Position numbers and translations under genes: made by a program. Below, one piece after another: positions 4,601 to 58,804 of a stretch of DNA of 64,000 bases (its first letter is position 1; each line of letters opens with the position of its first letter). Location: contig SCHM01000002.1 of NCBI GenBank assembly GCA_004123355.1, positions 7,661,569-7,725,568 of the forward strand, read 5' to 3'. This DNA comes from Amphirosellinia nigrospora. Lineage: Eukaryota; Ascomycota; Sordariomycetes; Xylariales; Xylariaceae. The notes under the pieces were generated by a model that worked only from the letters and a program-made list of their open reading frames with translations, searched no databases and had not been told where the DNA came from.

Positions 4601-5376
4601 GCGCTATTATATAAAAAAGCAATTTATAGCTTATATTATAAGCTATAAAACGCAACGAAAAATTATTATTATAATATATTATAAAAATTTATAATGTTTT
4701 TAGTCGATTTTTTATACGTGCTATAATAAAATTTTATCGAAATAAACTAAATAGCTAATAATATAAAATTATTAGAATTCGAAAAAAAATTAATCGTATA
4801 ATATATATTTAATTTAAATTTATAAAATTTTCGCTTAAATTAAATAATATTAAAATATAGCTAATTAATTATTATATAAATATAATATATTATTTATTAA
4901 AATTAATTAAGCTTTAAATTTTATATAATAATTATTTAACTTTTAAATATATTTTAATTATTAAATTAATTATTAATAAATTTTATATAAAAATTTTAAT
5001 AAATATTAAAAATAATTTAAGCTTATATAAAATATAATTATAGCTAAAAATATTTATAAAGCAAATATTTATAACTTTAATAAAATAAAGTTTATAATAA
5101 ACTAAATATTATTTAAAATAATTATAACGTTATATAAACGTTATAAATAATTAAAAACTATTTAATAAATAATTAAAAATAAATAATTATTATTTATATT
5201 ATTTTATTATAGCTATTTTATTTTACTATATATTATTTTAGCTAGGTTAATCTATTTATTATTTTAATATAAAAATAACCGTTTATTAATTAATTAAAAA
5301 ATTAAAATAATAAAAATAGCTAAATTATAAACAAAAAAATTTAAATTAAATTAAATATTTCGATTATTATATAATA

Positions 5377-5661
5377 TGTTAAGTAGCTAAAAGGTATAAT
5401 ATTATATGTAATAAAAAGTAAAATAAATATTTATATATATTAATTTATTTTTTTAATTATTTGTATAAAAGCTAGGCTTTTATGCGGAAAATTTTTTTTA
5501 CGAAAAGAATTTTGTTAAATATATTATATAACTAGATTGGGCGGATATATTAGTTTAATTTTATTATACGAACAGTTAATATTATAGTTAATAATTAGCT
5601 ATTATATGTAGTTAATATTAATATATTAATTTTATACGTAAATAATATTATAATTATAATA
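5377..5661. repeat. Left terminal repeat of the LTR fossil
   Basis: This segment matches 12,352-12,631 along its whole length in direct orientation. Shared landmarks are the ATAATATTATATGTAATAAA stretch near its start, GGGCTTTTATACGG-like and GGGCGGATATA segments in the middle, and ATTTTATACGTA near its end. It begins with TGTT, consistent with a terminal TG. Confidence 0.65.
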
Positions 5662-6002
5662 TTAGTTTTTTTTTTTTTAGTTATAATATATTTTTATACG
5701 ATTATTTTTTTAATATAAAAATCTAAACGTAAAAAAAATATTAAATATATTATATAGTAAATACGTAAATAAAAAAACGCCCGATAGTATATTAAATTAT
5801 TATTTTTTTAAAATATCCGGTATTTATATAATTATACGTAAAAAAAAAGTTAGTAAATATAAATAAAAAAGCTAATTTATATATTTATTATATATAATTT
5901 TTTTGTTTAATTTGTTTAAATATTTTAAAAAATTAAATAATATATTGCTTTTATATTTGTTATTATTGTACGTAAGTTAAGTTACTTTTATATTATTTTT
6001 TT

Positions 6003-6240
6003 GTTTTTTTTTTTTTTTTTTTTTACGCGCGTATATTTATATTTATATATATATATATATATATATATTTATACGTATGTTTTAATTAATTTTATAAACT
6101 TATATAATATTAAATCTAATAATTATTATATAATAAACATAATATTAGCAATAATATTAATAATAATATTAGTAGTACTAATAATATTAATAGTAATATT
6201 ATTATTATTATTGCTATTATTATTATTATATATAAAGTTT
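6003..6240. repeat. Simple-sequence tract: poly-T, (TA)n, (TAA)n
   Basis: A run of about 20 T is followed by a TA dinucleotide run near 6,040-6,068 and by ATT/TAA triplet runs from 6,130 to 6,235. It lies inside the LTR fossil. The open frame that crosses it is an artefact of this composition. Confidence 0.7.
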
Positions 6241-9200
6241 TTAAATTTTTTAAATATTATATTAATAAACAATTAAAATAAAATTATTATTATTAATAAT
6301 AGCTATTGTTAGACTTGTTAATTTTATTAGGGTTTTTTGTTTATATTTTATGTTTTTTATTTTAATAGTATTATATAGTTTTAAAACTTTATATGTTTAA
6401 AAAATAGTAGTATTATAAAGGTTTATAGCTTTTTTACTAAAAGTTAGGCCTATAAAACCTTTATATTAGCGTTATATATAAACGTACGTATATTTTTATT
6501 TGTTTATTTATATAAATAATTTTTAGTATATATTTTAATTAATTTGTTTTATTATATAATAAAATAAAAAAATATAATTATTTTGCTTTTTTACGATATT
6601 ATTTTTAAATATTATTAATTATTATTTTTGCTAATATATAAACGAAGTTTATATATTAAAAAGATATTTTATACGATTTTTATTTAAAATTGCAGCTAAA
6701 TTATTATTTTATACTAGGATAGTTTATATAATAGTTATATTAATTATTAAAATGTTTTATTTAATTAATATTTATAGTGCTAAGTTTTTAAAATAGTGTT
6801 TATAATGTTTATATAGCAATTATATAATATTTATTATTTTATTATATATAGTTTAAGTTTAAAAAAAAAAAAAGGAAATAAAAGATTAATTATACGCGTT
6901 ATTTTTCGAAATATAAATTTTAGTTATTATTTTTGTTATAATTTTTTAATTTTTTTATTATTTATATATAATATTTGCTTTTTTAAATATTTATATATAA
7001 TATATTACTTTTATATATGTTTAGCTATTATTTATTATATAAATATATTTTTTATAGTTTTTAATAAATGTTTTAATTTATATAAATAGTTTATTTATAA
7101 AAACTAAAGTTTTTAATATTTAGTTTAATATATGTTAATAAATATATTAGCTAAGTTATTTTTATTATTAATTTATTATATTTTAAAGATTTTTTTTTTT
7201 TATATAATTTTTAAAAAAATATATATTTATTAATTTTTTTTTTAAATTATTTTTAGCTTAATTAAATAATTATATAATAATTTAAATTTAAATATAAAAT
7301 AATAAATATTAAAAATAAATTAAATATTTTTATAATTTTTTAAAATATTATATAAAAAGTAATAATATTAAAACTATTAATTATATTATATAATTTATTA
7401 GCTAGAATATTTTATATAATTTTTTTATATTTGTTTAAATTTAATATATAATATTGTTTTTAATTTTAAAGTTTAAGTTTATTATATTTTTTATATAAGT
7501 TTTAATTATAAATATAATAATAAATTTAAATTATAAAATTATATTTATATTATTTATAAATAATTTATTTATAAAAATAAAAAGCTTTATATAATAAAAA
7601 TCGAAAAAAAAAACATAAGTTTTTTCGATAAGTTATTTTTTTACTATTTAATTCGTTTGTTTAATATTTTAATATTATATAATTATAGCTTAATAATTTA
7701 AGCTATAATAGTAAAATATATAATTTTAAATTAATATATATTAATATATATTTTTTAGTTTATTAAAAATATAAGCTTAAATAAATTTTTTTATATAAAA
7801 GTTAATTTTAGTTAAATTTTTAGCTTAATTTTTTTAGGTTATTATAATATTTTATTTATACGAAAATTTTTTGCTATTAAATTTAAAAAAATATTTAAAA
7901 AATAAAATTTTTTAAGTTTTACGTAAAATTTTATTTATTTAAGTTTTTTTTTTTGCGCAATAAAAAATCTAGCGTAATAAAACTTAATATATTATTATTT
8001 ATATTTTAATTATTTTAAAAATATTTAAACTATTATATATAACTAATAATATAAGTTATATATAAATATTTATATTTTAAGTTTTTTTAATAATATTAAT
8101 AATATATTTTAAATTAATATAATTTAAATTTAGCTAAACTATATAAAAGTTATATAATATATAAATAGTTTTTAAAAAATATTTTTTTTTTGTTTTAAAA
8201 ATAAATAAATATAAATATTATATAATAATTTATTTTTTAATTAAATATAAGTTTAAATAATATTTTTAAGCTTATATAAAGTTTTAAAGTTTTATAAAAA
8301 ATAAATTAAATATTAAAATTAATTATTAGTTTATTTATTAAATCGTTAGCGATTAAATTAAAATAATATTTTTTTTAATATTATTATATTTTTATATAAT
8401 AAATTTAAACTTTTATATAGTTTATAGTTTTTTTTTAATTTTTATATAAAATAAAACTTAAAAATATATTTTTTTTTATAAATATTTAAATTATATATAA
8501 TAATTTAAAAATATTTATATAATAAGTTTATTAATTTTTATTATATTTAACTTTTTAAATAGTTTATTAAAAGTTATAATAATTTTATTTATATATAATT
8601 TAATTATTAATTTAAAAGCTTATTTTTTTTTTTATTAAAAAAATCTATAAATTTAAATATTATATAATAAATATATTTAAACGTTATATAATAATAAAGC
8701 TAAATTTTTTTTTTTAACTAATTATATTTTTTTTAATAATTATTAGTTATATAAATTATATATTATTTTAGTTTAAATTATTTATTTAAATATTTTTATA
8801 TAATAATATAGTTTAATTTATATATATTAAAATATATTAATTTATTAATCGAAATTATAATTATATTTAATTTTTTAATTATTTTAATTTTATAGTTTTT
8901 TTTATTTGATTTTTTTTTTTATATTAAAATTTGTTTTAAAAAAAAATATAAATATATTATATAAAAATAGTTTATTTCGTTCGTTAATCGTATAATTAAT
9001 TTTAATTTTTATATAGTTTTTATATAATATTTTTATTATTTTTTAAATAATTATTATTTTTATATAATAAAAAAAATAAAAAATTTTTTATTAATATAAA
9101 AATAAGCTTTAAAATAAAAAAAATTAATATAAAATTATTAATTTAATAAATTATTTAATATTTTTATTATTATTTATAAAATTAATTTATTATTTATATA

Positions 9201-12200
9201 TATATCGATTTTTTTCCGAAAAATATTATATATATATTTAAATAGTTTATATATTTATTTTATTTTATTATTTAATATATTTTAATAAATATTTTATAAT
9301 TTATATATTAATTATTTTTATATATTTTTTAAATTTATTTAAAAAAATTTATTTTAAAATTATATATAATATTATTAAAAGTTTTTAATAAATATTAATT
9401 TAATATTTATATAATATTTTTATATATTTTATATAAATATTAATTTTAAAAAAATCGCCGCTTAAAATAATATAATAATATTAATAATATATAATATTTT
9501 AGTTATTTATTTGTATAATGTTTATAATTTTATAGTTAAATTTATAATTATTTTTAATTATAAATTTAAATTGCTATAAAGTTTTATTATATATTTAATA
9601 ATAATAATAAAATTTTTAGATTTTTTTAAATAAATTGTTCGATTTTATATTTTATATAAATAATATTTTATATAATTTTTTATATAAAAATATCCGAATT
9701 ATTTATATAAATAGCGTAATTTAATTTTTATAAAATAGCTAGTTATTTTATATAAACTAATATTAAAAAAAATAATTTTATTTATATATAATAAAAATTA
9801 TTTTTATTTTTTTATGATAATATTTTTTATATTATCGAAATATATTTTTAAATAGTTTATATTTTTTAAAAAAAATAAAAATAAAATAAAAATATTTAAA
9901 ATATAAAATATTATATAATTAATTTAATTATTAATTTTTATTATATTAATTAAAATTATATAGTTTTTATTAAAGCTTTTTTAGCTATTTTAAAAGTTTA
10001 AATAATTTTAGCTTTTAAGTTTTTTTATATATAAGCTTTTATTTGTAGTTTTTTTATAATAAAAAATTTTAAAGCTTTTATATTTTAAATAATATTTTAA
10101 TATTTTATATAATATTAATTATTAAATATAAATAAATTAAATAATTAATCTATAATTATTAATTAAATATTTTTTTTTATTATATAATATATAAATATAT
10201 TATTTATAATATATATATAATTTTTTATTTTATATATTCGAATTTTTTTTTTTTTTTTATTATATATATTTAAATAATTTTTATATTTAGTTAAATAAAT
10301 TAAAAATTTTTTAAAAGTTAGTTTATTTTTAAATATTATTTTATATATATTAAAATATTAATTTTTCGTACGAGATTTTTTTAAAAATATATTAGTTAAT
10401 TAATATTTTTTTTTTAATAAATAAAATATTTTTTATTTATATATAAGTTTTTTAAAAAATAATTATTTATATAATTTTAGCTAATATATTATTTTTAAAA
10501 ATTTTTAAAATATTATATAATATTTTTATATATAAAATAATAATTAATTTTAGTTATATTATTAGTTTATATAATAAAAATTTTTTATTTTTTATATAAA
10601 ATATTAAATTATTAGGTTTTTTTTAACTTAAAAATATAAATAAAAGTTTAAAAAAATTTTCGTATATAAGTTTTAAAAAATAAATACTGTTTTAAATTTT
10701 AGAATATTTTATATATATATAATAGTTATATTTAAATAAATTTTTTTTAAATATTTTGTTTTAAATATTTTTAAGCTTTAAATAGTTTATTAATTATAAT
10801 TTTAATATTTTATATAAAAATAGTTTTTTTTTTATTTATATATTTATACGAAAATAATATTAGTTTAATTAGTTTAATATTAATATATATTTATAATTAT
10901 ATTAAATATAAGTTTATAATATTATATTTTTTTTTATATATAATTAAAACTAATATAATATATAATAATTTTTTATATAATTAATTATATTAAAAAATAT
11001 AATATAAAACTAATTTTTATAATTTTAATTTATAATAATAATTAACGAACTATTATATTTTATTATAAAATAAATTATATAGCTTTTTAGAAATTTTTTT
11101 TTTTGCTAAGTTTTTAAAAAAATTTAATACTTTATAAATAAAATAGCTTTATTTTAAATATTATATATAAAAAGATTTAAATTTTAAATAAAAATATTTT
11201 TATATTTATATTATATAATAAATAAATTATTTAAAGTTTAAAAAAAATTTTAAAAAACTAAATATTTTGTATATATTAAAAATAATATATTTTTTTTTAT
11301 ATAAAATAAATTATTAATTAAAATAAATAATAAATAACGTTTAATAGTTATAAAAAGTTTTTAAAATTTTATTTTTAATATTTTATTTTTATAATATTTT
11401 ATTATTTAAAGTTAAAAAGCTAGCTTTTAGTTATATATAAGTTATTTGCGGCTATTTTTTTTATTTATTTTTTTATTTAAAAAAAAAAATCGTAAAGTTG
11501 CTTTATTATATAAAAAATTTTATTAATTTTAAAATTATTAATTTAGCGTAAAAAGTAATATTATTTAAAATAATTATATAAAAATTTAAAATCTATATAT
11601 TAAAATATATTTATTTTTTATAAATTATATAATATAGTTTTTTTTAACCGCTTTATAATTTTTAATTTAAAACGTTTTTTATATAAAAATATTATAAATT
11701 TTTTAATAATTTAAATATTAATTTTATTAAATATTTTAAGTTTTATTGCTTTAAAATTTTTGTTAATATTTTTTAAAAGTTTTTAAATTATATAAAATAT
11801 AATTATATTTTATATATAAATATATTGTTATATATTAATTTATTTTATAATAACTATTTTAAAGTTTTATAAAATATTTTATAATATAGAAATTAATAAT
11901 TTTTATATAAAATTTAAAAATATATTAGTTTTTTAAGCGATTTTTTTAGCTATATTTTATATAAAATATTAGCTAAAAAAATAAAAAATTATTTTAGCTG
12001 TTTTTTCGAAAATATAGCGTTTTTATACGTTTAGCTATATTAATTATTATATAATTAGTTATTATTTTTTATTATATTTAAAAATTATAAATAAAAAATT
12101 ATTAAATTATATTATAAATTTTTACGTAGTTTATATAATAATAATTAAAAAATAATATAATTATGCGCTATTAATTAAACTTTTATATAAAATATAATAT

Positions 12201-12351
12201 TAAAGTACGTTAAAATAATTAATTTTTTTTTTTTATTAATATAATATTAAAAAAACTAAAGTACGATATAAAAAATATAGCTTATATAATTAAGTTTAAA
12301 TTTTATTTTTTTTTTATTAATTTATATTTTTTAGCTAAAAATATTAATTAA

Positions 12352-12631
12352 TATTAAATAGCTAAAAATATAATATTATATGTAATAAAATAAAATAAAT
12401 ATTATATATATTATTATTTTTTTTTAATTATTTATATAAAAACTGGGCTTTTATACGGAGAATTTTTTTATATAAAAAAATTTTATTATAATATACCGTT
12501 AACTGGATCGGGCGGATATACTAGCTTAATTCTATTATATAAATAGCTAATATTATAATTAATAATTAGTTATTATATATAATTAATACCGATATATTAA
12601 TTTTATACGTAGATAATACTATAATTATATA
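12352..12631. repeat. Right terminal repeat of the LTR fossil
   Basis: Direct repeat of 5,377-5,661 with the same order of landmarks. It retains a somewhat less mutated middle part around GGATCGGGCGGATATA than the left copy. The ends are placed by comparison of the two copies and may be off by a few bases. Confidence 0.65.
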
Positions 12632-14339
12632 TAATATATTATATAATAAATTTTATTACTTTTTAATTTAAACAGTTTAAAAGTTATTATTTTATTAAAT
12701 TCGAATTATATATTAAAAAATAATAAAATTATTATTTTTATATATTTATTTATTTATTATATAATTTTAGTTTTTAAATTATAATTATTTTAGTTTTTTA
12801 AAATAGTTATATAATAAACAAATTAATAAATTAGCTTAAATTTATATTTTTATATTAAAAAAAAAAATTTTTTTATATTATTTTATACTATATATAATAT
12901 TATAATAATATTAAAAAATATTAAAAAAAACTTTTAAAAAGCTAGTTTTATTTTATATAATTTAAAGTATATTATTTTATAACTTTTGTTTAAAAATTTA
13001 ATTAAATATTTTTAAAGTTATTTAACAAACTTTAAATTTAAAAGTATAAATATTTATAACGTAAAAATATTAAATTATAAGTTTATATTAAATATAAGGT
13101 TATATAATATTAAAATAGCTTTTTTTATAATTATTTTAAATATAATTAATTTAATTATAAAAAAATAAACATATTAAAATAAAATTATATTATTTTAATT
13201 TAAAATAATTAAACTTTAAAAAATAAATTATAAACTAAGCTAATATTATTATATAAAAAATAAACGGATTTAAATTAAAAAAACATTTATTATATAAAAA
13301 AAATAAAATTAAAAAACTAAAAAAGCTATTAAAAATTAAATAAATAATAAAATATAGTTAAGTAATCGTTATACGAAAAAAAATATTATAAATAAACAGT
13401 ACTATAAGATTTACAGCAAGCTTAAATATATAATATATTATATAAAATAAAATAAAAATTTAGCGAAAACGATTTAATTAGTTTTAATTAATTTTTATAT
13501 TATTATTAAATTATATTAATTATTCGTATAAAAGTGCGAAAAAGTATATAGGATGCTTATATAATATATTATTTTGTTTACTATAATAAAAATTAAATAA
13601 AAAGCTTAAAATAAGTTTAAATTAACTAATAAATAATAATAGTACTAAAAATACTATAAAAATTTAATTTTTTATTTTTTAAAAAGTAGGATTTTATGCT
13701 TTTTAATGCTTAAAATTTTCCTTTTTTATTATTATTATATAAACTAGCTATAAGATTTAGCTATAAAAGCTATATAAATCTTTAAAGATTTTTATAAAAA
13801 CTTAAAAAGCTAATATTATTCTGATTATTTTTATAAACTAAAGTATATTATATTATTATATATTATTTAAAATAGCTTTAAGTTCTTTTAAAAAGTTATA
13901 TTTTAAAAGTTTATAAAAAAAAGTTTTAGAATTCGGCTATAAATTAAAAATATAAAAAAAATTATATTAAAATTAAAATAAAAAACTAAAGCTTTTAAAA
14001 ACTTTAAAAAAATTATTAGCTAAATAAACTTTAAATTTTAAATATTTAAATATAAGCTTTAGTTATATTTTATTTTTTATCGAATTATTTTTAAATATAA
14101 AACTTTATTATATTTTTTTTTTTTAATTTTATAAATTAAATAAATTTTATAATTAAAAACTAAATATTTAATATTTGAGTTTAGTTTCGGTATTTTTTAA
14201 AGTTTATTATAGCTTTATATAATTATTTTAGTTTTATAATATATTTAGCAGTAAATTTACGTAATATTTATAAGTAGTTTTTATAGCTATTTTAATTAAA
14301 AAGTTAAACTAATTTAACTTATAAATAGATATATTATTT

Positions 14340-14990
14340 AAACGTTAGGCTTTTAATTTTAATATATATTTTTATATATTTTTTAAGGCTTTTTTTATTA
14401 AACGTTTATTAAAAATATAATTTAAATATAAATATTTTTTTTAAAGTTATATATATTTTTTATATATTATTTAAAGCTTTTTTATTAAACGTTTATTAAA
14501 AAATATAATTTAAATAATTATACTTTTTTTAAAATCTATATATATTTTTTATATATTATATAAAGTTTATTTTATTAAATATTATTAAAAAATATAATTT
14601 AAATATTTATATTTTTTTTAAAGTTTATATATATTTTTTATATATTATATAAAGTTTGTTTTATTAAATATTTATTAAAAAATATAACTTAAGTATTTAT
14701 ATTTTTTTTAAAGTTTATATATATTTTTATATATTATATAAGGTTTATTTTATTAAACGTTTATTAAAAGTATAACTTAAGTATTTATATTTTTTTAAAG
14801 TTTATATATATTTTTTATATATTTTTTAAGGTTTTTATAGCTAAATATTTATTAAAAAGTATAACTTAAGTATTTATATTTTTTTAAAGTTTATAATTTT
14901 TTTATATGCTTTTTAAGGCTTTTATTATTAACGTTTATTAAAAAATATAATTTAAATATATATACTTTTTTAAAGTTTATATATATTTAT
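14340..14990. repeat. Tandem array of about seven 88-bp units
   Basis: A unit with the order TTTTTAAGGCTTTTATTAA, CGTTTATTAAAAA, TATAACTTAAGTATTTATA, TTTTTTAAAGTTTATATATA recurs at about 14,402, 14,490, 14,579, 14,668, 14,758, 14,844 and 14,932. Spacing is 86-90 bp. Copies differ by a few substitutions and small indels. The array is inside the RIP block and is itself RIP-altered. Confidence 0.75.
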
Positions 14991-16573
14991 AAATAATATT
15001 AAAATAAAATCTAAAAAAAAAAGTTTTTTTTATACGTTTTATATATAAAAAAGCTTTTTATTTTTATATAATTATAATTATAATAAGCTTAAAATAAATA
15101 TTAAAAATAAAACTTTTAGTTATAGTTTATATTTAAATATAAAAATAATTTAAGTTTTTTATAAAAATAAATAAATAAAATTATAGTTTATTTTTTAAGC
15201 TTATTCGAACGTTATAAATTTATAAAATATAGTTAATTTTAATAAAAATTAAATAATATTTGTTTAAACTTTTAGTTTTATTAATAGTTTTTAATTATTT
15301 AAATATTTTTTGTTTTATTTAAATTTATAGCTATAATTAAAATCTATTAGGTTAAAAAGTTTATATATTTTAATTAGTTATTTTTAATTAATTTTTTAAA
15401 GTTTTTTTTTTTATAGTTTAAAATAAAATAATTTTAAAAAAAAATATTTAATTTTATAAAAATTTTAAAAAAATTTAAATATTAATATAGTTTTTTATTT
15501 TTTTTTTTAAAAAGCTAGATTTTTTTTTTATTTTTTAAATAAAAACGCTAAAAAAATAATAAAAAATACTAATAATATTTGCTCGCAAATTTTAGCTAAC
15601 TTTTTTATATTATAGTTTTAATAAATATTATTAATAAATATTAAATTAAAAATTATAATATAATAAAATTTATCGAAATTTTTAATTAAATTAAAACTTA
15701 TTTAATTAAAATATTTATTAAAACTAAATAATATTATATATTATAGTTATATTTTTTATATAAAGCTATAAATAATAAATATTTTTTAAATAGAATATAA
15801 AAAACTTAAAATTATTATTAATAATATATTTTACGTTTTAGCTAGCGTTTTTTATATTTTTTCTTTTAAGTTATATATTATAAAAATTATTAATTTTATA
15901 AAGTTAAAATTAGGTTTATTTAATTTAAATTCTTTAGTTTATTTATTATAGTTATTTTTATAAGTTTTAAAAAAGTTTTTGCTAAAATTAAAAATTTTTT
16001 TATTTATATTTTATTTTTAAAGCAAAAATAGCATTTAAAAAAAAACGGGCAAAAAATATTTTTTTTAAATAGATTTTTAATAATATATTAAATAAAAAGT
16101 TTTTTTTTATTATATTATAAAATGCTATAACTATTAAAAATATATATAAAAATTTTTTATAATTTTAATATAATAATAAAATAAATAATAGTTTTATAAT
16201 TATATATTATTAATAATTATTTTAATTAAAATTAAAGTTTAATAGTTTATATTTGTTAGCTTTTATTATTTTATTTTTAAAATATTAAATAACGTATAGT
16301 TTTATTTATTTTTAATATATTTTAAATTTTTTAACTATTTAGCGTTAATTATTAAGCAAGCTATTTATATAATTTTATAAAAAATTATTAATATATTAAA
16401 ATAACGCTACGTTTATTAATATTAAATAACTATTAGCGCTTTATATTATTTTTAATTAATTATTTTAAAAATATTATTTAAATAAAAAATTATTAAAGCT
16501 TAATTTTTTTTATTTAGTTTAAATAATTTTAATAAATATTAAATTAATTTTTAAATAATAATTAACTAACGTT

Positions 16574-16680
16574 TTAGTTTAAAATAGCCTAGCTTAGCTT
16601 AAAATAGCCTAGTTTTAGCTTAAAATAGCTTAGTTTAGCTTAAAATAACCTAGCTTTAATTTAAATAACCTAGCTTTTAT
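16574..16680. repeat. Short tandem array, about 24-bp unit
   Basis: About five copies of a unit like TTAGCTTAAAATAGCCTAG follow each other. The copies vary as TAGCCTAG, TAGCTTAG and TAACCTAG. Confidence 0.65.
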
Positions 16681-17370
16681 AAGCTTAGTTTTTTAAGCTT
16701 ACTATAATAATAACTTCGAAAAAAACTATAAATAACTTTAAGGCTTATAAAAATAGTAAGCTTATATATACGTTAAATATTATTTTTTATTATTTAAAAT
16801 TATTATATAGTTTGTTTTTATAATGTTTATAAAAATTTAAGCAAAATTAGTTTTAAGTTTTAGTTTTAATTTAGCGCTAGTTTATATTTTTATTATATAC
16901 TTAATATAACATAATAAATCGTAGTTTAAACGAACAATTTTTTTATAACGTTTTAAAAACATATATTTAACTTTAAATTTTAAATAAAATATTATGCTAT
17001 ATTTAATAGCTAAAATTATATATTAACGCAAAAAATATAAACTTTTTATTTTTCGATTTAATAGTTTTTTCGAATAGTTTTTTAAATTTATTTATAATAA
17101 GTTTTATTTTAAATTAAATATATACTAGCGTAAAATTTTAGCTCGATAATTATTAAATTAGCGGTATTTTTTTTTCGGTTAAATTATTAAACTTTAAAAA
17201 TTTCGGCTATTTAAAGCTTTTATTAAAATTATAATTTATAATTCGATAATAGCTAAAAAAACGAAATTTAATAATAAAAATAAGTTAATAAATAAAAATA
17301 TTATAAATAAATTAATAAAAAAAAAAAATTTTTATTAAAAAAAAAACAGTTATATATAAAATAAAAATTA

Positions 17371-17577
17371 AATTAAAAAATATAATTGTTTTAATATTAT
17401 AGTTAGCTAAAGCAACTAAGCTTAAAACTAAATTAAAATATAATTATTTAATATTATAATTATTTAAATAATTAAAGCAGCTAAGCTTAAAATTAAATTA
17501 AAAAATATAATTAATTTAATATTATAGTTAGTTAAAACAACTAAATTAAAAAATATAATTATTTTAATATTATAGTT
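17371..17577. repeat. Imperfect tandem array, 45-70 bp units
   Basis: Three to four diverged copies of AAATTAAAAAATATAATT, then TTAATATTATAGTTAG, then TTAAAGCAACTAAGCTTAAA. The last copy lacks the CTAAGCTTAAA part. Confidence 0.55.
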
Positions 17578-18892
17578 TTTATATTTAAATAGTTTTATAT
17601 TTATTTTTAGCTTTATAAACTTTTATAAACTTATATAATTATTTATTTATTATTTATTTAAATAAAATAACTTTTTAATTTTTATTTAATTATTTTTAAG
17701 CTATTTAATTTTCGAGTTTATTTTATTATATTTACGATTTTATATTTTATTATATAAAAACTAAAATTAGTTTTATTTTTATAGTTTAGCGCTATTAAAA
17801 CTAAATTATAAACGTATAATATAAAGCTATAATATTTATTATTATTTAATAGTTAATAAAATTATTTTTTAGATTTATTTTAATATTAGCTAATAAATTA
17901 TTATAGTTATTTTAACGAATAAAAACATTATATATTTTTTAAAATGTTATATATTTTACGTTTTAACGTAGTTATTTTATTATTAGCTATAAAAGCTTTT
18001 ATTATATTTAAATATAAATATTAGATTTTATTAAAATATATTTTATAATAATATTATATAATAAATATAGCTAAAGTTTATTATATAATATAGTTTAAAC
18101 TAATTTTAAAGCAATAGTTTTAAGCTTTTAAATTATATTATAAATTATTAAAAGCAGCGTTAAATAGTTATATCGCTAACGATTTTATATTAAGTTTTTA
18201 AATCTTTTTAATAAACGTATTTAGCAATATTATTAAATATTAGTTAGGTTTTTTTATAAAATTAAATAATTATATAAATTATAGTTCGTATATATATTTT
18301 AAATAGAATTATTTTTAAGCTTTATTATATTATTAATATTTTAACTAATAATTATTATTTTTTAAACTTTAATTAATAATTAAATAAAATAAGTATTATT
18401 TATAGATAATATTAAACTAATTATATATTTAACGCGCTTTTGCTGCTTTTTTCGGTAGAAATTTTAGTTTAAAAAATTTTATAAAGCTTAAAAACGATAA
18501 TATTTATATAATATATTTTAACTTAATATTTAAACTTTATAGCTTAATAATATTATAGTTTAAATAAAAACTAAATATTTAATAGTTATTACGATTAAAA
18601 TTTTTTTTTTTTTTCCGAACTTATATTATATAATTATTCTGGCTTATATTGTAGCTAATATTGCTTTAGTATTTTTTTAATAAGTTAATATAATAAAAAG
18701 TATTAATAAATATCGTAAATTAAAACCTAAGTTTTATTTTAAACTAGATTAATAAAAAAACTTAGCTTTATAATAAAAAGTATAAGCAAATATAATAAAA
18801 AAATATGCAGCAAGTAAAAACCTAGGTTTTAACTTTGTACTAGAACAAAGAAAGTAGATATATAGCTAGCACATTATATAGCTAGATACGCA

Positions 18893-18955
18893 ACTTACGA
18901 AACAGACTTACGAAACAGATTTACGAAACAGACTTACGAAACAGACTCACGAAAG
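18893..18955. repeat. 13-bp tandem array at the edge of the AT block
   Basis: Nearly five head-to-tail copies of ACTTACGAAACAG, one with a single change (ATTTACGAAACAG) and the last partial. It sits exactly where base composition returns to normal, and it still contains CA dinucleotides. Confidence 0.85.
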
Positions 18956-20321
18956 TGTCTCTAGAGCTGAGATCTTTCCGAAATAGGAAATCGTTAACTC
19001 CGGGGGTTGGGCTCCTCAATATAGTTACCTAAATCAGTATCCTAGCCTGATTTGACTTTTATCTCTCGTTATATAGTATTCTCGAATTTCTATTTTATCT
19101 GCAAGTGTAATTTCTCCCTCGTTTTCCGTGACGCCGTAGACAACTCGAAATCGGCTCCAAATATTCCTGATTTAGTGTATATGTGGATCGTAACATACCG
19201 TACTCCCCCTATAATCGGCGAGTGAATCATCTTGAACAAATAGTACTGGAGGGTATTAAGTTGTCAAATGAAAAATGTTCGTCGTATGTAATAAATTGCA
19301 AAGGAGCTCACATCGAGTCAAGATTGGTTCGTACCTTCTTGGGCTTCGGAGTTTACACTCGGACCGTGCGCTGGAGTACTCCGCTACTCCAACTTATTCT
19401 CGTGGCCGTTGTTGCCATCATCACTACTCGGCCTCCGTCTCGCATCCTCGCGATCGATCACGCAAGCGTGAGTCGAATGGATACCATCGAGGTCACTGGC
19501 AGACTCCGTTTAATTTGTTTCCGATATACTGGATTTGGGCATTTATTAAGGGTCTTAAATAACGCTGTTGGGAATTCCACGTATACAATGTCAAGGGACA
19601 TCCGAATCCGTCAATGGTGATGAGTTTCGCTGGCTCGAATGAGCGCGGTTGATAGTCTGGAAGCGAAGAATAGCGTCGATCATTGGGTGCTCAACTGTAC
19701 ATATGCATGTAACTAAGAAAAAGTTAAAGGAGGTCAGTCTGCGGGAAGCAACCGGGTTAATGGAGTCCGCCAACCATCGCCCGTGATACTACCCACCTCT
19801 ATAGCAAGGGTGGTCTATTATCCCTACGGCGCACGAGGCCAGGAAACCAACACAAACTACGACCAATTAGAGTGTGTCTGATCACATGAATGAAGTGATG
19901 GCGGAAGGCTGCTGCGGAATAGCTTGGCCCAGTTTGAGTTTATCCGGCGCTCGTGCTCCGTTTTGGGAAACACGGAACGAGACTCTGCGCCGGCGACGCC
20001 AACCTTTCTCCGAACAACGCTTCTAAGTTGAAATCAGTTGAATTAGTTCACAGAACAAGAAATAATAACTCCGATATAAAAAAAATGGAAATGCCTACGT
20101 CATACCCAACCCTGAAACGCGGCAGCCGATATTAGCCTGTGACGTGTGGTCGGGACCCAGTCCGGGTTATTGGGTTCCATCAACGACGGCAAGCTTTTCC
20201 GTTCATGCTGTGTAATATGGGAGTGATTAAAATACTTATTAAGCAATATATATAAAGTGCCTTTAAGTCGCAGGAAGATCGTCTTGATCTTCATTGATAG
20301 CACCAGCCGGCCAGTATTCAA
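18956..20321. other. Intergenic: transition from AT block to gene space
   Basis: Ordinary base composition, no recognisable gene. The one longer open frame (19,183-19,620) lacks a proper ATG start and any known motif. A TATA box for the following AA9 gene is near the right end. Confidence 0.5.
20251..20256 (+). promoter_or_regulatory. TATA box of the AA9 gene
   Basis: TATAAA within an ATATATATAAAG context, about 70 bp upstream of the AA9 start codon. The position fits an AT-rich fungal core promoter. No nutrient-response site was identified with confidence. Confidence 0.4.
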
Positions 20322-22343: not shown

Positions 22344-23512
22344 ATGAGTGCTAGCCCCAAAATCCTCGTCACTGGTGCCTCCGGTTACGTGTAAGTGTAA
22401 CTCTTAAAAGATTCTACAATAATGCTAACTTAGCCCAGTGGAGGTACGGTTCTTTCACAATTCCTTGCGTCGTCGATCAGCGAGATCCAAAATGCCTCTT
22501 TTTCCGTACTTGTCAGGAAACAAGAGCAAGCAGATAAATACGTTTCCCAAGGTGTTACACCCCACCTCCTCACAGGTCTCGAAGACGTAGAAGCGGTCCG
22601 CCAGCTAGCCAGCCAATTTGACATTATTGTTCACGCGGCGGACTCTACGAATCCTGCAGCTGCCGAAGCGCTGATCTACGGCCTGCGCGAGGGCGCCGAA
22701 AAGAGAGGTAGTGGCACGAAACCACACTTCATTCACTTGAGTGGTGTTTCTAGTCTGGGGTTTAACTGTCTCAAACCCCCTACAGTCATCTCCCATGAAT
22801 TTTCCGACAAGCGGGACGATGTCTATAGCTACATGAAATGGCTAGAGAGTATTAAACCGTACGCCCAACGGACGACGGACCTGGCGGTGATCGACGCTGG
22901 TGAGAAGGCCAACGTCAAGACGTACGTCATCAAGGCACCTCGTATCTACGGCCGCGGACTGGGGCGTTCAATAAAAAGTCCGTTCATATCCCAATGCTCA
23001 TTGGCGGCGCCATTTCAGCAGGGCGACCCGAGTATATTGGCGACGGCGCCGGCATCTGGGATGATGTCCACGTCGCCGATCTCGCCGATTTCTACGAGCT
23101 TCTCCTTGGAAAGATCTTAAGGAATGAAAACGTGCAGACCGGGCCCAAACCCATTTTCTTCGTTCAATCCATCAGACATTCATGGAAGGAGTTGGCCGAA
23201 GGCATAGCTGCGGCCGGCGTAAAGAACGGCGCCCTGAAGTCGACAGAAATAAGGTCGATCCCACTATCTGAGGCTGCCAGAAAATATACCGGCGGAGATT
23301 CTAATGTAGCAGAAGTCGCGCTAGCGTCAAAGTAAGTGGCGAATAGTTTACCATCTCGTCATGTCCTAACTTCAGGTCTACTAATGCTTGTGCGCAACAG
23401 CTCGGTCACGAAGGCGGACCTGGCTCTCGAAATGGGCTGGATTTCCCAAAAGACAGAGGCGGATTTCCAACAAAGTCTACTCGACGACTTCAACGTAGCA
23501 ATTTCAGCTTAA
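22344..23512 (+). CDS. NAD-dependent epimerase/dehydratase (extended SDR)
   Basis: Three exons: 22,344-22,390, 22,439-23,331 and 23,401-23,512. The introns are 48 and 69 nt with GTAAGT donors. The product is about 350 aa. The N-terminus reads ILVTGASGYVGG, the Rossmann dinucleotide-binding loop, formed across the first intron. A YSYMK (Y-x3-K) candidate for the catalytic pair and a RIYGRG motif typical of atypical or extended SDR enzymes follow. The C-terminal half has DVHVADLADFYELLLG, as in fungal NAD-dependent epimerase/dehydratases of unknown substrate. One single-base loss near 22,970, in a GGGG run just before FNKKS, splits the long exon into two frames; elsewhere exon lengths and phases fit. 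The substrate cannot be inferred. Confidence 0.85.
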
Positions 23513-34000: not shown

Positions 34001-34343
34001 CACCCTCGATCCCTGATTGTCGCTTCATCGCCCGACTCGATGCTGATCTCTGGTTGGCTTGTGCAGATCCTCGTTCGACCTCATATCTTTGAATACCCCT
34101 GTACAACAAACAGTATCCAAAGCGCTGCTCATTGTGCGGGAACATGATGTTCTCCGGTTTGCGACTGCAGCCTCCAGTACATTGACGACGACCCGCTTGC
34201 GACGTTAGACCATCGTGTCCCGATCTTCAGCCCCTCCCTCAAACCTGGTCCTGTATTGCATTGGACAGTCTGCGCTCGGATAAAGTCGTTGTTTGAAGGG
34301 CATCGGGATAGCGGCGGTCTCGTGTCCTCCCTATAGTGTAGAT
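31044..34343. other. Large intergenic region upstream of the formin
   Basis: 3.3 kb without a recognisable gene. Open frames at 31,609, 32,414, 32,642 and 32,775 lack ATG starts or motifs. The last kilobase (33,300-34,343) is pyrimidine-rich with many short CT tracts. It probably includes a long 5' leader and promoter of the formin gene. Confidence 0.45.
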
Positions 34344-37300
34344 ATGTCTTCTGGCGGTAAAGGATTCTTCTCCCGAAGCAAACACAGGAGTGAAAAGCGG
34401 CATACAGGTAGTGAGGAGGGCCGCTTCTTAGCTCCTGACTACGAACCGTCGGTGCGTTCGTCTCGCCACACACGGGAGTCGTCCGTTGCGTCTCTCGATC
34501 GGCCGAGCTCCCCCGAGGCCGGCGTGAACAACTCCGCTGGGGTCATAACCTCCATTCCCTATGGCAACGCACCAAACGAGCGAAACCCAGCGTCCGCCGA
34601 TTATCTCGCTCGGCCCGATCAAATGCCTTCCCGGCGCGATCCCTTGCCCCATCAACTAAACAAAGGCACCGCCGACTACCACCAGTACCCTTCTGTTGAT
34701 GCAAACGGTTCCGCCGGCTCCCACCTCTCCGGCCAACGCCCGCCAACTGGATCTTCGAATATTACCATGGCGTCCACTGGTCGTCAAACGCAATTCCAGC
34801 AATGGGGACCCCAACAAGCCGCCGGTCAAGCACCTCGGGGCAGCTCAAGCAGTTCAGCTGCGTTTAACGAAAGATGGGACTCTCTACCTGGCTGGGGTCA
34901 GCCAGGCCACGGCAGGACTTCACGGCAGAGTGATCAGTCTAGCATCTTCTCAGGTAACGGCCAACCTTCAGACTCCGTCTGGTCCAACAAACGCTTATCC
35001 AGAACAGCACTCCCCAGTGCAACCTCGCAGAGTTCGGTTACCTCTAGTAGAGACTCGCATCGATTAACTAAATTTCCTGGCTCCCCGGCACAGCTACAAC
35101 CCGGTGGCCCAGATGGCTTTTCCCTCACGCGACCTGACGATGATCGACTCACTGAACAGATGTTTTACGAACTGATGCAGAAGCGCGGATGGCACAATCT
35201 TCCTGAACAGGCAAGACGGCAAATGCAGGCATATCCGTCTTCCAAAAAATGGACCCTTATTTATCAAGATCGTTTAACTGAGTGGCAGGGTGATCAAAAA
35301 CGGAGGCAGACTGCGCGAGCTGGCCAATATTCAAATGTCGACATTACTGCAAATTCTGACGAGGAGGGCTCTCCCGAATGGTATGTTCGCAAAGTAATGG
35401 AGAACAGTCTGGACTCGAAGGGCCTAGGTAGTCTCGAGTCAATCTGAGGACACAACAGATCGGTTGGGTGAAGCGCTTCATCGAATGCCAGGGGCAGGTG
35501 GCTCTCACCAACGTTCTGCTGAAGATAAACCGGAAGACTGCTGTTGGGCCAGCTGCGCCCGCCGATTCCAAACAAAGCGACAAGAACCTCGATAAAGAAT
35601 AATATTATAAAGTGTTTGAAGGCTCTGTTAAACAACAAGTACGGTGCTGACGATGCTCTGGCTCACCAACAAGTCGTCGTGGCTCTTGCAACGTCGCTCA
35701 TCTCGCCAAGGCTTACAACGCGGAAACTTGTCAGCGATGTTTTAACTTTCCTCTGTCACTGGGAAGACGGCAATGGCCACCTTAAGGTTATCCAAGCTAT
35801 GGATTATGTCAAATCACAGCAAAATGAGAATGGCAGATTTGACGCGTGGATGCGGTTGGTTGAAGTTACAGTGGACGGTCGAGGGAAAATGGGGAGCCTC
35901 GTCGGAGCTAGCGATGAGGTTCGAACTGGCGGCATTGGCATGGAAAACCTCCTGATGGAATATGCTGTGGCAACTCTGATCCTAGTGAACATGATTATCG
36001 ACGCGCCAGAAGGAGATCTCCAGCTACGTATGCATATTAGGGCCCAGTTTGGTGCCTGCGGGATCAAACGGATCCTCACCAAAATGGAAGGGTTCCAATA
36101 CGACCTGCTAGACAAGCAAATCGAACATTTCCGCTCAAATGAGGCCATCGACTATGAGGACATGCTCGAGCGGGAGAACAGTAGTATCAAAGATAGTATC
36201 GAGGGCGAAGTAAAGGATTTGAACGATCCCACTCAGATCGTGGATGCCATTCAACAACGCTTACAGGGCACCAAAACTCAGGACTATTTTGTTTCTGCTC
36301 TTCAACATCTTCTCCTCATCCGTGAAAATGACGGAGAAGAGCGGTTGCGTATGTTCCAGCTTGTCGATGCAATGCTCAGCTATGTTGCTATGGATAGGCG
36401 ACTGCCGAACTTAGATCTTAAGCAAAGTCTTAATTTCACAGTACAGAATCTTCTGGACAAACTCCACACAGATTCTGAAGCTCGGCAAGCACTGGATGAG
36501 GCTCTTGAGGCTCGCCAGATTGCCGAGGCTGCCATGGCTGAGCGAGATGAAATGAAGGCAAGAGTTGAGCTTGGTGCCGATGGATTTAGTAGCTAAGCTA
36601 CAAAGGCAGCTGGACGAGCAAGCTCGCTTCATCGAGGCCCAAAAAAGACAAGCCGATGGACTTAAAGCGGAGGTTGAGAATATGCAGACAGTCCGTGCGA
36701 AAGAGGCTCAACGTTATGAGCTGGAGACACGTGAGCTTTACCTAATGCTGAGAGATGCGCAAGATGTCGCTGCCTCACAGGCCGCAAAGGGCGCCGTCGG
36801 CGACAAGCCGGCCGAAGAGGATCCCACTCGAATGCAAGGCATCCTCGATCGTGAAAGACTCATGGACCGACTTGCTATGCAACTGGAGCGGCAAAAGACA
36901 CAGTATAAGCTCGAAGGTCGTGTCTGGGGCGAAGCTGTAGGTCCATCCGATCGGCTACGTGCCCTTCGTGAGGAGATGGAGGGTTTCGATGATTCTTACC
37001 CTGACGCCCCTGAAGGAGCTGGACTGCCGCCACTTGGTGTATCTGGTGGGGTTCTCGGGTCAGTCAGGCGGAATACTAAAATCCCAAGAAAACCCGTGGG
37101 TACTCAGTCAGGTACCGATGGCGCCCGCGTTGAGGACGATGACGATGAAACTATCTATGAGAAACCTAGGGTGGTGGAGATTAGAAGGCCTGTGATGGAC
37201 CCTAAACAAGCAAGTAATCTCATCAATGAGATTCGAGCAAAGGGTAGAAAAGAGGATGAGAGTGATTCTGACGCCGGGGACGGCGCTACCACAGGTCCTT

Positions 37301-39562
37301 CACATCCAAGTCTTGAGTCACAGTCGCCAATTACCCCAAGTGACAATGACACGCCCAAGATACAGGTCGACGATACAACAGCTCCACCACCGCCACCGCC
37401 GCCCCCCACTCCCCCTATGCCGGGTCGCCTACCGGGAGCCGCCCCTCCTCCACCGCCTCCACCGCCTCCCCCTTCCCCGGACAACTTCCTGGTGCTGCAC
37501 CCCCTCCGCCTCCACCTCCGCCTCCACCACCTATGCCCGGCTCTTTGGGGGGAGCACCTCCGCCGCCGCCCCCACCAATGCCAGGTGCTATGGGAGGAAT
37601 GCCGCCGCCCCCGCCGCCGATGCCAGGCGCTATATCTGGGCATTTCCTATCTGCTCGAAATAACCTTGAGCCGGTCCTCAATGGAATTGGACTTCCCGTA
37701 GTCAGGCCCAAGAAGAAACTCAAGGCTTTCCACTGGGAGAAAGTCGATGCTCCAGAGACAAGTCACTGGGCAGCTCATACACCCTGCGGAAGCCCGGGAG
37801 GAGAAGTATATAGAACTTAGTAAGAAAGGTATTCTAGACGAGGTTGAGAAGCTATTCCTAGCTAGGGAGATCAAGAAAATCGGTGGCGGTGGCTCTAAGA
37901 AGGACGACAAGAAGCAAATCATTTCTGCCGACCTTCGAAAAGCTTATGGTAAGTTACGCTTCGTGAATTTTATACATGGCTATTGACTAATATGGGTATA
38001 GAAATCGCATTTGCCAAGTTCTCTCAACATTCCGTTGAGAAGATTGTGCAGATGATTATACACTGCGATAAGGAAATACTAGACAACACTGTCGTCATGG
38101 ACTTCCAGCAGAAAGACGACCTTTGTAACATAAATGACAACACTTCCAAACTCATGGCACCATACAGCAAGGATTGGACTGGCCCACAGGCTAATAAGGA
38201 AACCCGAGAACAGGATCCTTCCGAACTCACCAGACAGGACCAAATTTATCTTTACACGGCTTTCGAGTTACATCACTATTGGAAGAGTAGAATTCGGGCG
38301 TTGGCTCTCACACGAAGTTACGAGGTAGACTATGATGAGATCTCGGAGAAGATGCATCAGGTTGTTGCAGTATCCGAAGCTCTACGTGATTCCGTGTCGT
38401 TAATGAATGTTCTTGGTCTCATTCTCGACATTGGAAACTACATGAATGACGCTAATAAGCAGGCTCGTGGCTTCAAACTCAGCTCTCTTGCTCGCTTAGG
38501 CATGGTAAAGGATGACAAGAACGAATCATCCCTCGCGGATCTCGTGGAGCGTATCGTCCGAAATCAGTATCCTGAATGGGAGGGGTTTTCTGTTGATATT
38601 CAAGACGTTATTGTGGCACAAAAGATCAACATCGAGCAATTGCAGACTGACGCAAAGAAGTATATCGACAACATCCGAAACGTTCAATCGTCTCTAGACA
38701 ATGGCAACCTTAGCGATCCTAAGAAGTTTCATCCGCAGGACCGTGTTGCTCAGATTGTCCAGCGCTGCATGAAGGATGCCCGCCGTAAGGCCGAACAAAT
38801 GGAGCTGTATCTTGAGGAGATGATGCGAACATACAAGGATATTATGACTTTCTACGGCGAAGACCCGACTGACGATAACGCTCGTCGCGAATTCTTTGCG
38901 AAACTAGCCTTTTTCTTGCAGGAATGGAAGAAGAGCCGGGAAAGAACATACAAAACGAGGAGACGCGACGTCGAAATGAAGCCAGCATGAAGCGCAAGCA
39001 CCCACAGCTCAAACTATCAGGCAGCGCCACCGAAGGCGCACCCCCATCGCCAGCGTCTGCTGGCGCTATGGATTCCCTTCTTGAGAAGCTGCGGGCAGCC
39101 GCGCCTCAGGCTAGAGATCAACGTGAGCGACGAAAAAGACTACGGCTCAAAGAGAGACATCAAGTACGCATTGCGTCCGGTCAGCAGATACCGGACCTCA
39201 ATGAAATTCCAGAGGCTGAAGCCGGGCTCCATTCTGAGAATAACGTGGGTATCGTAGACTCTGAAGGCAACCCCCTGTCGCCTAATCTCTTATCACCGGG
39301 AACTGCACCTTCAGAAGGCAGCGAAGATGGCGTAGCTCAGAGGGCTGCCATGTTGCTGCAGGACATGAGAGGTGGTGACGGCAATGATGATGGAGATGGG
39401 GAGCAAAAAGAAAGTCTTAGGAGGTCCGCAGCAGAGGAGAGGAGAGCCAGGCGGCGGAGACTGAAGGGATCAACAGCCAACAATTCGAGCACAGGTGATG
39501 GAGATGGTAGTGTCAAAAGCCCAGGTATGGGAGAAATTCCAGCTACTGTCCCGGAAGAATAA
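34344..39562 (+). CDS. sepA: Formin (SepA/Bni1-type actin nucleator)
   Basis: Nucleates and elongates linear actin cables at hyphal tips and septa under Rho-GTPase control. Two exons, 34,344-37,948 and 38,002-39,562, give about 1,720 aa, close to fungal SepA. In order: a Ser/Pro-rich N-terminus opening MSSGGKGFFSRSKHRSEKRH; GBD/FH3 from about residue 270 to 690; a coiled coil to about 870; a proline-rich FH1 at about 1,010-1,100; FH2 from KKLKAFHWEKVD (about 1,124) through LDIGNYMNDANKQARGFKL; and a DAD with MDSLLEKLRAA and RERRKRLRLKE near 1,557. The 53-nt intron has GTAAGT and TGACTAAT. Six indels break the frame, near 35,438, 35,597, 36,583, 37,470, 37,772 and 38,943, at least four in homopolymers. 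They cancel to zero net, and every domain remains complete. In so central a gene this argues for sequence error. Confidence 0.93.
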
Positions 39563-56422: not shown

Positions 56423-57251
56423 GTTTCGAGTTCGGTTTATTGTGTATATGTATTATAGGCGTACTTCAGAATTCAATGAAACAGACCAAGGCGGGTTGGT
56501 TGTAGTGATTAAAGATTTAATATCATGTGACACTGGCGATCTACACTTGTATAGTGTAGGACTCGTACCTTATTAGAAAGCTGTCACTAGTTTACGGCGT
56601 TGTCTTGACCATGAGGATTGTAATAAGGAGCACAGTACTCATATGGCGCTTATTGAGACAAGAGGACACCTTCAAGCGAATCTCGGTGACTAGCATTAAA
56701 TGCGAGGAAGAAAGTCCCTTTGTTTATATCTTATAATATTATTGTTCGACACTAGGTGGTTGATCAAGCCTCGAACCTAGTGGCGTTCAAAATTGAGCGA
56801 ATTGAGGTGCTAAAGGTTGCTGAGGACTACTTGACCGGCCAAGCTTCTGGAAGAGGAGGATGGTTCTCAAAGTTGGACCCTTAGACCCGTCACCTCCTTT
56901 TGCCAAATATATGAGTCTATCGACATTGAGGCCCCAGCAACGCAGTCGGAAGTCTGTGGGGACGAAGGTATGCATCTTGGTCCTGTTAAAATATCGGACC
57001 GAAACTGCCAAATAACCCAATAACGAACTACAGCAAATATTTAAGCTGGTATACCCAGGTCCCTATACTTAGGGTACGCAGCAGATACTTGTTGCTGTAC
57101 GAGGGTCCCAAGACCTACCTTCATAGAGAGTCTTTATATCTATGTGTGTGTACAATACAATGAAGCTCTAAAGCCTCACGAGGCGGCCCATGATCATAAG
57201 ATAGGCTTAGGGGACTCACCATTATGTGGGGATAATGTCTAACAACACCAG
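56423..57251. other. Intergenic upstream of the tRNA gene
   Basis: Nothing recognised. A short minus-strand open frame at 56,787-57,020 lacks motifs. Confidence 0.35.
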
Positions 57252-57280
57252 TCCTCGGTGGCGCAATTGGCTAGCGCGTC

Positions 57281-57333
57281 GTAAGTTGCATTTCAAATGG
57301 ATGCACGATAACTAGTGTCTAACAATATTATAG
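57281..57333 (+). other. Candidate mRNA-type intron within tRNA-Asn
   Basis: 53 nt starting GTAAGT and ending TATAG, with TCTAAC about 12 nt before the 3' end. These are the donor, acceptor and branch site seen in the protein-gene introns of this window (48-132 nt). Exact removal restores the tRNA. It contains no T4 run that would stop Pol III. Confidence 0.7.
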
Positions 57334-57371
57334 TGACTGTTAATCAGGAGGTTGAAAGTTCGAGCCTTTCC

Positions 57372-57378
57372 CGGGGAG
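57372..57378 (+). terminator. Pol III terminator of tRNA-Asn
   Basis: A run of seven T directly follows the discriminator base of the tRNA. Confidence 0.8.
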
Positions 57379-58804
57379 TTTTTTTCTTCATTTTCCCCAT
57401 GTCTACGTTAGAAAGCATCTTGCTATTTTTTTAACTTGAGTTGTATCTCTGCTCGTCTTTTTGTTTTCTTGCCATGGTAACCGGTACCTTATAGAATCGG
57501 ATTCTTAAAATATTATACTAAAAATGATACACGATCTAGAAGGGCAATTGACACTAGACTTGTTGTGAGGCACGAAATAATAGGTATATGACGGACGTGA
57601 ATTGCTGAAAGTGGTAATAGAAGTCGTCTGAAGTTGACACTTAGCAAGCAGTGTCTAAAATGAGCTTAAAACTAGAATGATGGATATAGTGTCATAACAT
57701 ATTGTAATATTGAGTACATCCTATCGTTGACAAGAACTGCTACGTACCTATCTAGATAGTCGTTTCCTTCTCAAACTAGCATCAAAGACCCCAGAACTGC
57801 CGCCTTTAACACTACCACAGCCCGGGATAGAGGTCTCTGTACAGGTATAGTGTTAGTGATGTCTTCAGGCTCAGGAATATCCATCTTGAGACTCTCGTAG
57901 TTGAGCAATTCACATCTTACGTGAGACGTATTATTTGTCGCGTTGAATCTCTGAAGCCTATACAAAGCGCAATTAAACACCTGCCAAAAAATAATTACTA
58001 CTATCCGCTTGCTGTGAACAGGAACGCTAATTGCAAAACATCATGGCGATCTACTATTTTTCTAACTAGGAACGGGATCAACTGGGTAGCATTTTATGCC
58101 CAGGAGCTGTCAACTGTTACAAGGGCTCTGATTGAGGGCTTGGGAATAGCTTCATTCCTTCACATCTAATAATTGGCTATGGCGTCAAAGGACCTCTTAC
58201 TCTCTATATTCCTAGCAGAGAACTCGGGACCTGACTAGCCTATACATACACGAAATATCGGACTACCCCAACGGACCTCCGTTGGCCTGTGTAGCCAATA
58301 TAGCTCAAAATGGTACAAATTGCCGAGGGCTGAAGCTGTAGGCGAGGTACGTGTAACATCAACTGCAACTTGGTCAACACTGTCGCTCTAATCTCGCTAT
58401 TCGGATAAAATGACACTTAATCCGAAGGTATCATATATTTGACTAGGCCCTTGTAACTGCCTATCAAGCGGAGTACACTATATAAAAGGCCTTGCTTCTG
58501 GATAGCTATCCGGACGATCAGGCAGTATACTACGTAACGGGTCATTACTAACGACGCTCGCCCTTAAGCCCTTAGCGTGCTCGGAATCCCAATTCGGGCA
58601 GCGCGTGGCGACCATATAATCCGCGGTTACCGAGGTTACCATTTAGTCCCACGCTACGAACTTAGTACCTAAGATATTCTAGATATTGTTGGAGTTTATG
58701 AAACCAATGACATAATTATCCATTTATCCTACATTTCGTTATTGATCATATAAACTATCCATCATCTTAACAACTTTCAAACGATCCCATCAAACACATT
58801 CAAT
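57379..58804. other. Intergenic, nothing recognised
   Basis: About 1.4 kb. A TATATAAAAGG box at about 58,480 lies 320 bp upstream of the thioesterase start and may be its TATA element or that of an unseen transcript. Other open frames have no ATG or motif. Confidence 0.35.

Follow-up and report, generated by a model that had tools for sequence, protein, structure and literature searches.

The DNA analysed here, a stretch of 64,000 nucleotides (the window), carries a tRNA-Asn(GUU) gene that is split in its anticodon stem by an insert with the signals of a spliceosomal intron. The features of the locus are as follows.

57252–57378, + strand: tRNA-Asn(GUU) gene, whole split locus
57252–57280, + strand: tRNA-Asn exon 1, 29 nt (nt 1–28 with 20a), comprising the acceptor 5′ strand, the D arm and anticodon-stem bases 1–2
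57259–57274, + strand: Pol III A-box-like TGGCGCAATTGGCTAG, uninterrupted
57281–57333, + strand: insert, spliceosomal-type intron, 53 nt, between nt 28 and 29
57281–57286, + strand: 5′ splice site GTAAGT
57318–57323, + strand: branch-site-like TCTAAC, presumed branch A at 57322
57331–57333, + strand: 3′ splice site TAG, with the first AG downstream of the branch site
57334–57378, + strand: tRNA-Asn exon 2, 45 nt (nt 29–73), comprising the remaining anticodon arm with GUU, the variable loop, the T arm, the acceptor 3′ strand and G73
57357–57367, + strand: Pol III B-box-like AGTTCGAGCCT, uninterrupted
57379–57385, + strand: run of seven T, Pol III terminator-like, directly after G73

The two exons were joined and compared with the cloverleaf and with the bases usual in eukaryotic tRNA-Asn. 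All 21 cloverleaf pairs were present (19 Watson-Crick and 2 G-U), as was the expected base at each of the 23 positions checked (8, 14, 15, 18, 19, 21, 26, 32–37, 48, 53–58, 60, 61 and 73), among them U8, A14, G18G19, U33, the anticodon GUU, U54U55C56, A58 and G73. ARAGORN called a tRNA-Asn(GTT) of 74 bases after removal of the insert, and only then. When a cut of 53 nt was placed at nine positions from −4 to +4, all five anticodon-stem pairs were obtained at the actual site only, the remaining eight placements giving 3 or 4 pairs each. As long as the insert is present, the precursor has an interrupted anticodon stem; a cloverleaf requires the insert to be out. The sequence-only reading had given the insert these coordinates and this length, with a GTAAGT start, TCTAAC and a TAG end, and had held that it splits the anticodon stem between nt 28 and 29 and that its exact removal yields a full cloverleaf with anticodon GUU; mapping on the cloverleaf, the pair count and the ARAGORN call reproduced all of this.

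The gene is missed by tRNA searches in their usual form. ARAGORN with default settings and Rfam at the gathering threshold found zero tRNAs in the window, and Rfam at E-values up to 10 gave neither a tRNA nor a group I match around the locus. With introns allowed, ARAGORN took the gene, insert included, for a tRNA-Val(AAC) interrupted at 32–33 by an intron of 35 nt. We rejected this reading as structurally poor, since it has a C-T mismatch in the stem and its variable loop is oversized; among the readings listed, none had an intron at 37/38. Given these misses and the misreading as tRNA-Val, fungal genomes may contain further genes of this kind that have escaped annotation. When the window was scanned for tRNAs carrying up to about 210 nt of inserted sequence between the D and T arms, this gene was the only match, and the same scan on 20 random 88-kb sequences gave zero matches.

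The joined 74 nt align over their full length with phage genes annotated as tRNA-Asn at 75.7–77% identity (best 5 of 72 records), and a plasmid search with the tRNA sequence returned 5 records, all from lactobacilli; the phage and plasmid matches are useful as isotype support only. In exact-pattern scans of a non-fungal collection, the tRNA patterns had 0 matches in three scans of viral contigs, and a 22-nt tRNA-Asn 5′ pattern matched 4 stretches (L001–L004) in genome contigs, a collection again without fungi. By ARAGORN these stretches lie in bacterial genes, namely tRNA-Asp genes of three planctomycete MAGs and the tRNA-Val gene of one Omnitrophota MAG (L003), and are thus not relatives. The general eukaryotic consensus and the fungal neighbourhood suggest that the tRNA is nuclear rather than organellar or bacterial.

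The insert has the properties of a U2-type intron: a GTRAGT-like 5′ splice site, a branch site (CTRAY) about 10–20 nt from the 3′ end, a host-like length (as judged from only two comparison introns), and a removal that restores the gene product. The presumed branch A at 57322 lies 11 nt upstream of the insert end, and that end, TATAG, contains the first AG past the branch site. The frequency of such signals was determined in the GC-normal part of the window (20001–64000, both strands), which holds 87,896 53-mers. Two of these begin with GTAAGT and end with YAG, and a single one, this insert, has CTRAC at branch distance as well; under a first-order model the full signal set is expected at about 1.5e-7 per 53-mer. 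For the looser pattern GTAAGT...CTAAC...AG the window has 4 occurrences where 0.6 would be expected, 4 being reached by 1 of 100 shuffles. A chance origin of the signal set is ruled out by the expected frequency of the full set together with the empty tRNA scans of random sequence. Furthermore, the boundaries set by the splice signals coincide exactly with those that restore the cloverleaf.

Some properties of the precursor bear on splicing in the opposite direction. The exon junction reads GTC/TGA, in which the exon bases preceding the cut do not match U1 in the usual way, and this atypical junction may count against a spliceosomal reading. With 29 and 45 nt the two exons are very short, and the precursor is foldable, which can also count against splicing. 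Predicted precursor folds pair parts of the insert, and no special RNA structure beyond that of shuffles was seen in the insert (z 0.24) or in the precursor (z −0.74).

For comparison, two introns of protein genes in the window are supported by domain matches.

37949–38001, + strand: formin intron, 53 nt, GTAAGT...ACTAAT...TATAG
22391–22438, + strand: intron in a NAD-binding-domain gene, 48 nt, GTAAGT...GCTAAC...CCCAG

Removal of the formin intron extends the FH2 match from profile positions 88–372 (237 bits) to 39–372 (257 bits), and this intron and the tRNA insert are equal in length and identical at their ends (GTAAGT/TATAG). In the other gene the exons join after residue 22, and an Epimerase match spanning residues 14–97 (24.3 bits) crosses the junction. 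The search from which they come was limited to introns of 44–75 nt and gave 22 rows, the tRNA insert included; two further rows rest on open frames, and the candidates other than these two domain-supported introns, 44 to 73 nt long, are candidates by sequence alone. Another join search gave 18 passing joins (those before 19000 left out), many of them plainly spurious; there was also a further set of intron joins (7 of 34 listed), and the joins in an ankyrin gene were uninformative. The insert had been described as just like the protein-gene introns of this DNA, a description that fits the 53-nt formin intron; the second domain-supported intron has 48 nt, and the other candidates range from 44 to 73 nt.

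In the same formin gene the GTPase-binding domain (34284–36596) is found in three successive pieces (profile 5–90, 93–127 and 131–188), of which the second is in a different frame, and the gaps between them measure from a few to about 37 nt. These gaps are too small for introns and may reflect indels of an unpolished assembly or a broken gene. The window further contains a block of 5–14% GC (2001–18000) that adjoins gene-bearing DNA of about 49% GC. The TpA/ApT ratio is 1.2 in 2001–19000, 1.7 in the first 2 kb and 0.83 in 20001–64000, and the corresponding values of (CpA+TpG)/(ApC+GpT) are 0.23, about 0.5 and 1.16. We take the dinucleotide bias of the low-GC block to be the mark of repeat-induced point mutation (RIP), which makes a filamentous Pezizomycotina-like fungus the likely source.

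The transcription signals of the tRNA gene were examined by a scan with the general A-box and B-box consensus, 2 mismatches being allowed for the B-box-like AGTTCGAGCCT. Both boxes are intact, TTTT is absent from 57252–57378, insert included, and the T7 run follows at once; such runs are not rare, with 17 starts on the + strand and 8 on the − strand in 44,000 bases. Taken together, the intact A and B boxes, the lack of TTTT in the insert and the immediate T7 favour Pol III and make read-through of the intron possible. The sequence-only reading had suggested that splicing might need Pol II transcription of the gene. This is not required, since spliceosomes accept non-Pol II transcripts, as the pertinent parts of the reports on U6 RNA (PMC10484740) and on rRNA of lichens and engineered yeast (PMC8527467) indicate.

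We consider it reasonably likely that the locus is a nuclear tRNA-Asn(GUU) gene transcribed by Pol III, whose spliceosomal intron is removed by the spliceosome. The gene would have gained a U2-type intron in its anticodon stem. Pol III would initiate upstream of exon 1, pass through the intron and terminate at the T7 run; U1 would bind its recognition site GUAAGU and U2 would recognise the UCUAAC branch site. The ordinary spliceosome would then excise the 53 nt by intron definition, as with the short mRNA introns of the host, and once the exons are joined the anticodon stem would close and the tRNA would be trimmed and charged with asparagine. We infer transcription, splicing and function of the gene from its sequence. 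The earlier proposal of a spliceosomal-type intron in tRNA-Asn is partly supported: the anatomy, the signals and the otherwise intact gene agree with it.

The main rival to a spliced intron is a recently disrupted, unspliced copy. Here one dispensable copy among several tRNA-Asn genes would have been hit recently by an intron-like insertion, leaving a young pseudogene without a tRNA product. The intron would nevertheless look genuine, because intron gain (by reverse splicing, for example) carries its own signals. If the genome has intact tRNA-Asn copies elsewhere, the cell could do without splicing this one. There is a precedent in eukaryotic tRNA genes with insertions in the D or T arm: according to Yoshihisa's review (PMC4090602), the gene hit is in most cases one of many synonymous ones, and such genes are deemed pseudogenes. 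However, at this locus 21 of 21 pairs, 23 of 23 positions, both boxes, the terminator and the intron signals are all intact together. A neutral copy would lose such signals over time, so that a prolonged decay is disfavoured, whereas a disruption in the recent past would be compatible with them. We regard a disrupted copy as rather unlikely.

The surroundings of the gene were searched for sequences related to the insert. Its 3′ half resembles 56735–56755 (− strand) and 57686–57706 (+ strand), both within 600 nt, so that one look-alike lies inverted upstream and one direct downstream, flanking the tRNA gene. The alignment score of the look-alikes was reached by 3 of 500 shuffles within ±1 kb and by 5 of 500 within ±2 kb, as well as by 5 of 375 ordinary 53-mers compared with their own neighbourhood. 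In 19501–64000, a 21-mer of the insert, with up to 4 edits allowed, has 2 further copies, the two look-alikes, where 15 random sequences have a mean of 0.13; a 17-mer has 2 at up to 3 edits (random mean 0.8, maximum 2) and a 19-mer has 1 at up to 4 edits (random mean 1.33, maximum 5). The first two counts exceed those of random sequence and the third does not. These comparisons, picked after the fact from several, hint at local repeats or at locally templated intron gain. Neither a target-site duplication nor a shared flank of 1–8 nt was found at the insert ends.

Immediately upstream of the gene, TGTCTAACAACACCAG (57236–57251) resembles a branch site followed by a CAG 3′ splice site. It ends at tRNA nt −1, one base before nt 1, and shares 10 nt with the branch region of the intron, the 10-mer TGTCTAACAA of the insert recurring exactly at 57236. 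At up to one mismatch TGTCTAACAA matches 6 times in the window with 3.79 expected, which is unremarkable (6 were reached by 18 of 100 shuffles), and YAG with CTRAC at that distance has a frequency of about 8e-4 per base in random sequence. The likeness of TGTCTAACAACACCAG to a 3′ splice site leaves some room for a Pol II transcript, in which the tRNA-like segment would lie within a spliced noncoding RNA, the intron would be taken out by ordinary co-transcriptional splicing, and the tRNA would later be cut out or be a relic. The immediate T7 and the intact A and B boxes point instead to Pol III, and AACAACAC just upstream of the tRNA could simply be a Pol III start region; we hold a Pol II origin to be quite improbable.

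A canonical eukaryotic tRNA intron is excluded by the insertion at 28/29 rather than 37/38. Removal of a non-canonical intron by the tRNA splicing endonuclease and a ligase, as in red algae, nucleomorphs and archaea, was considered by way of the bulge-helix-bulge (BHB) motif, in which a 3-nt bulge flanks each side of a 4-bp helix. For the insert, this central helix would form 1 of its 4 pairs at the cut sites and, with shifts of up to ±2 nt, at most 3 of 4. In favour of such an enzyme, archaeal introns occur at non-canonical positions that include 29/30 and 30/31, others are found in nucleomorphs and C. merolae (PMC4090602, in the part on these introns), and many non-canonical introns of G. 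theta are without a defined BHB (PMC3978253, likewise). The endonuclease would, on the other hand, need no GTAAGT, TCTAAC or TAG, whose coincidence has a p of about 1.5e-7. With the 28/29 site and the poor BHB helix, it is a poor candidate and the spliceosome the natural agent; the claim that the eukaryotic endonuclease does not cut at this site agrees with the position and the structural tests, and we judge its involvement highly improbable.

In group I introns the final base of the 5′ exon is U; exon 1 ends in C, and no Rfam group I match was obtained at E up to 10. An assembly artefact, with which the formin frame breaks and the unpolished assembly that they suggest would agree, or a very small degenerate group I intron as in Phialophora rRNA, where small putative introns of 56–81 nt are noted in PMC3160393, can hardly be credited, since small assembly errors of 1–2 nt cannot produce a 53-nt intron with exact boundaries and the group I signs are those just given.

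A spliceosomal intron at this locus would have consequences beyond the gene itself. A working spliceosomal intron in a tRNA would break the divide between tRNA and mRNA splicing, would show that a Pol III transcript can be handled by the spliceosome even when it is structured and its exons measure 29 and 45 nt, and would offer research on intron gain an example beyond Pol II genes. In teaching, the two kinds of splicing are presented as distinct pathways, each with its own enzymes. They are still kept apart in the relevant passages of a 2026 review (PMC13149111). Spliceosomal introns as such are already known, and the novelty lies in a gene class for which no printed precedent was found in the open-access literature. 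Among the matches listed from open-access full texts, none described a nuclear tRNA with a spliceosomal intron, in line with the earlier statement that none is accepted there. The tRNAscan-SE 2.0 paper, in the places listed, handles non-canonical introns for archaea only (PMC8450103).

Comparison with known systems sets the insert apart from other tRNA introns. The canonical introns at 37/38, which are cut by the Sen endonuclease, are likewise intervening sequences in nuclear tRNA genes, but the tRNA-Asn insert lies at 28/29 and has spliceosomal signals. The non-canonical introns of C. merolae, nucleomorphs and archaea share with it a position outside the anticodon loop. They are attributed to the endonuclease, with BHB motifs in archaea and C. 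merolae, and in the passages of PMC4090602 and PMC3978253 that deal with them GT-AG and branch signals are not described, unlike in the tRNA-Asn insert.

The U6 gene of S. pombe provides a spliceosomal intron in a short fungal Pol III RNA, with the difference that its host is itself a spliceosomal RNA, whereas a tRNA has no such link to the spliceosome. Tani and Ohshima are said to have described this mRNA-type intron in the U6 snRNA of Schizosaccharomyces pombe. Its presence in fission yeast U6 RNA, to which the sequence-only reading had pointed as a precedent, is supported by the text concerned of PMC10484740, and an origin by reverse splicing has been proposed there because the intron lies close to the catalytic nucleotides. 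The lichen rDNA introns are also comparable, being short, spliceosomal and situated in a structured RNA that is not made by Pol II; they differ in that the RNA is a Pol I rRNA from which removal has been reported, while removal from tRNA-Asn is inferred. Bhattacharya et al. reportedly found, in 2000, such spliceosomal introns in the nuclear rDNA of lichen-forming ascomycetes. According to the pertinent part of PMC8527467, one lichen rDNA intron, of 57 bp, was removed from Pol I rRNA by yeast. The lichen rRNA introns have been proposed to tie ribosome assembly to spliceosome capacity, and a parallel can be drawn for tRNA-Asn: tentatively, the Pol III tRNA-Asn precursor may be a regular substrate of the spliceosome, possibly in all tRNA-Asn(GUU) copies, in which case asparagine decoding would be tied to spliceosome capacity in a similar way.
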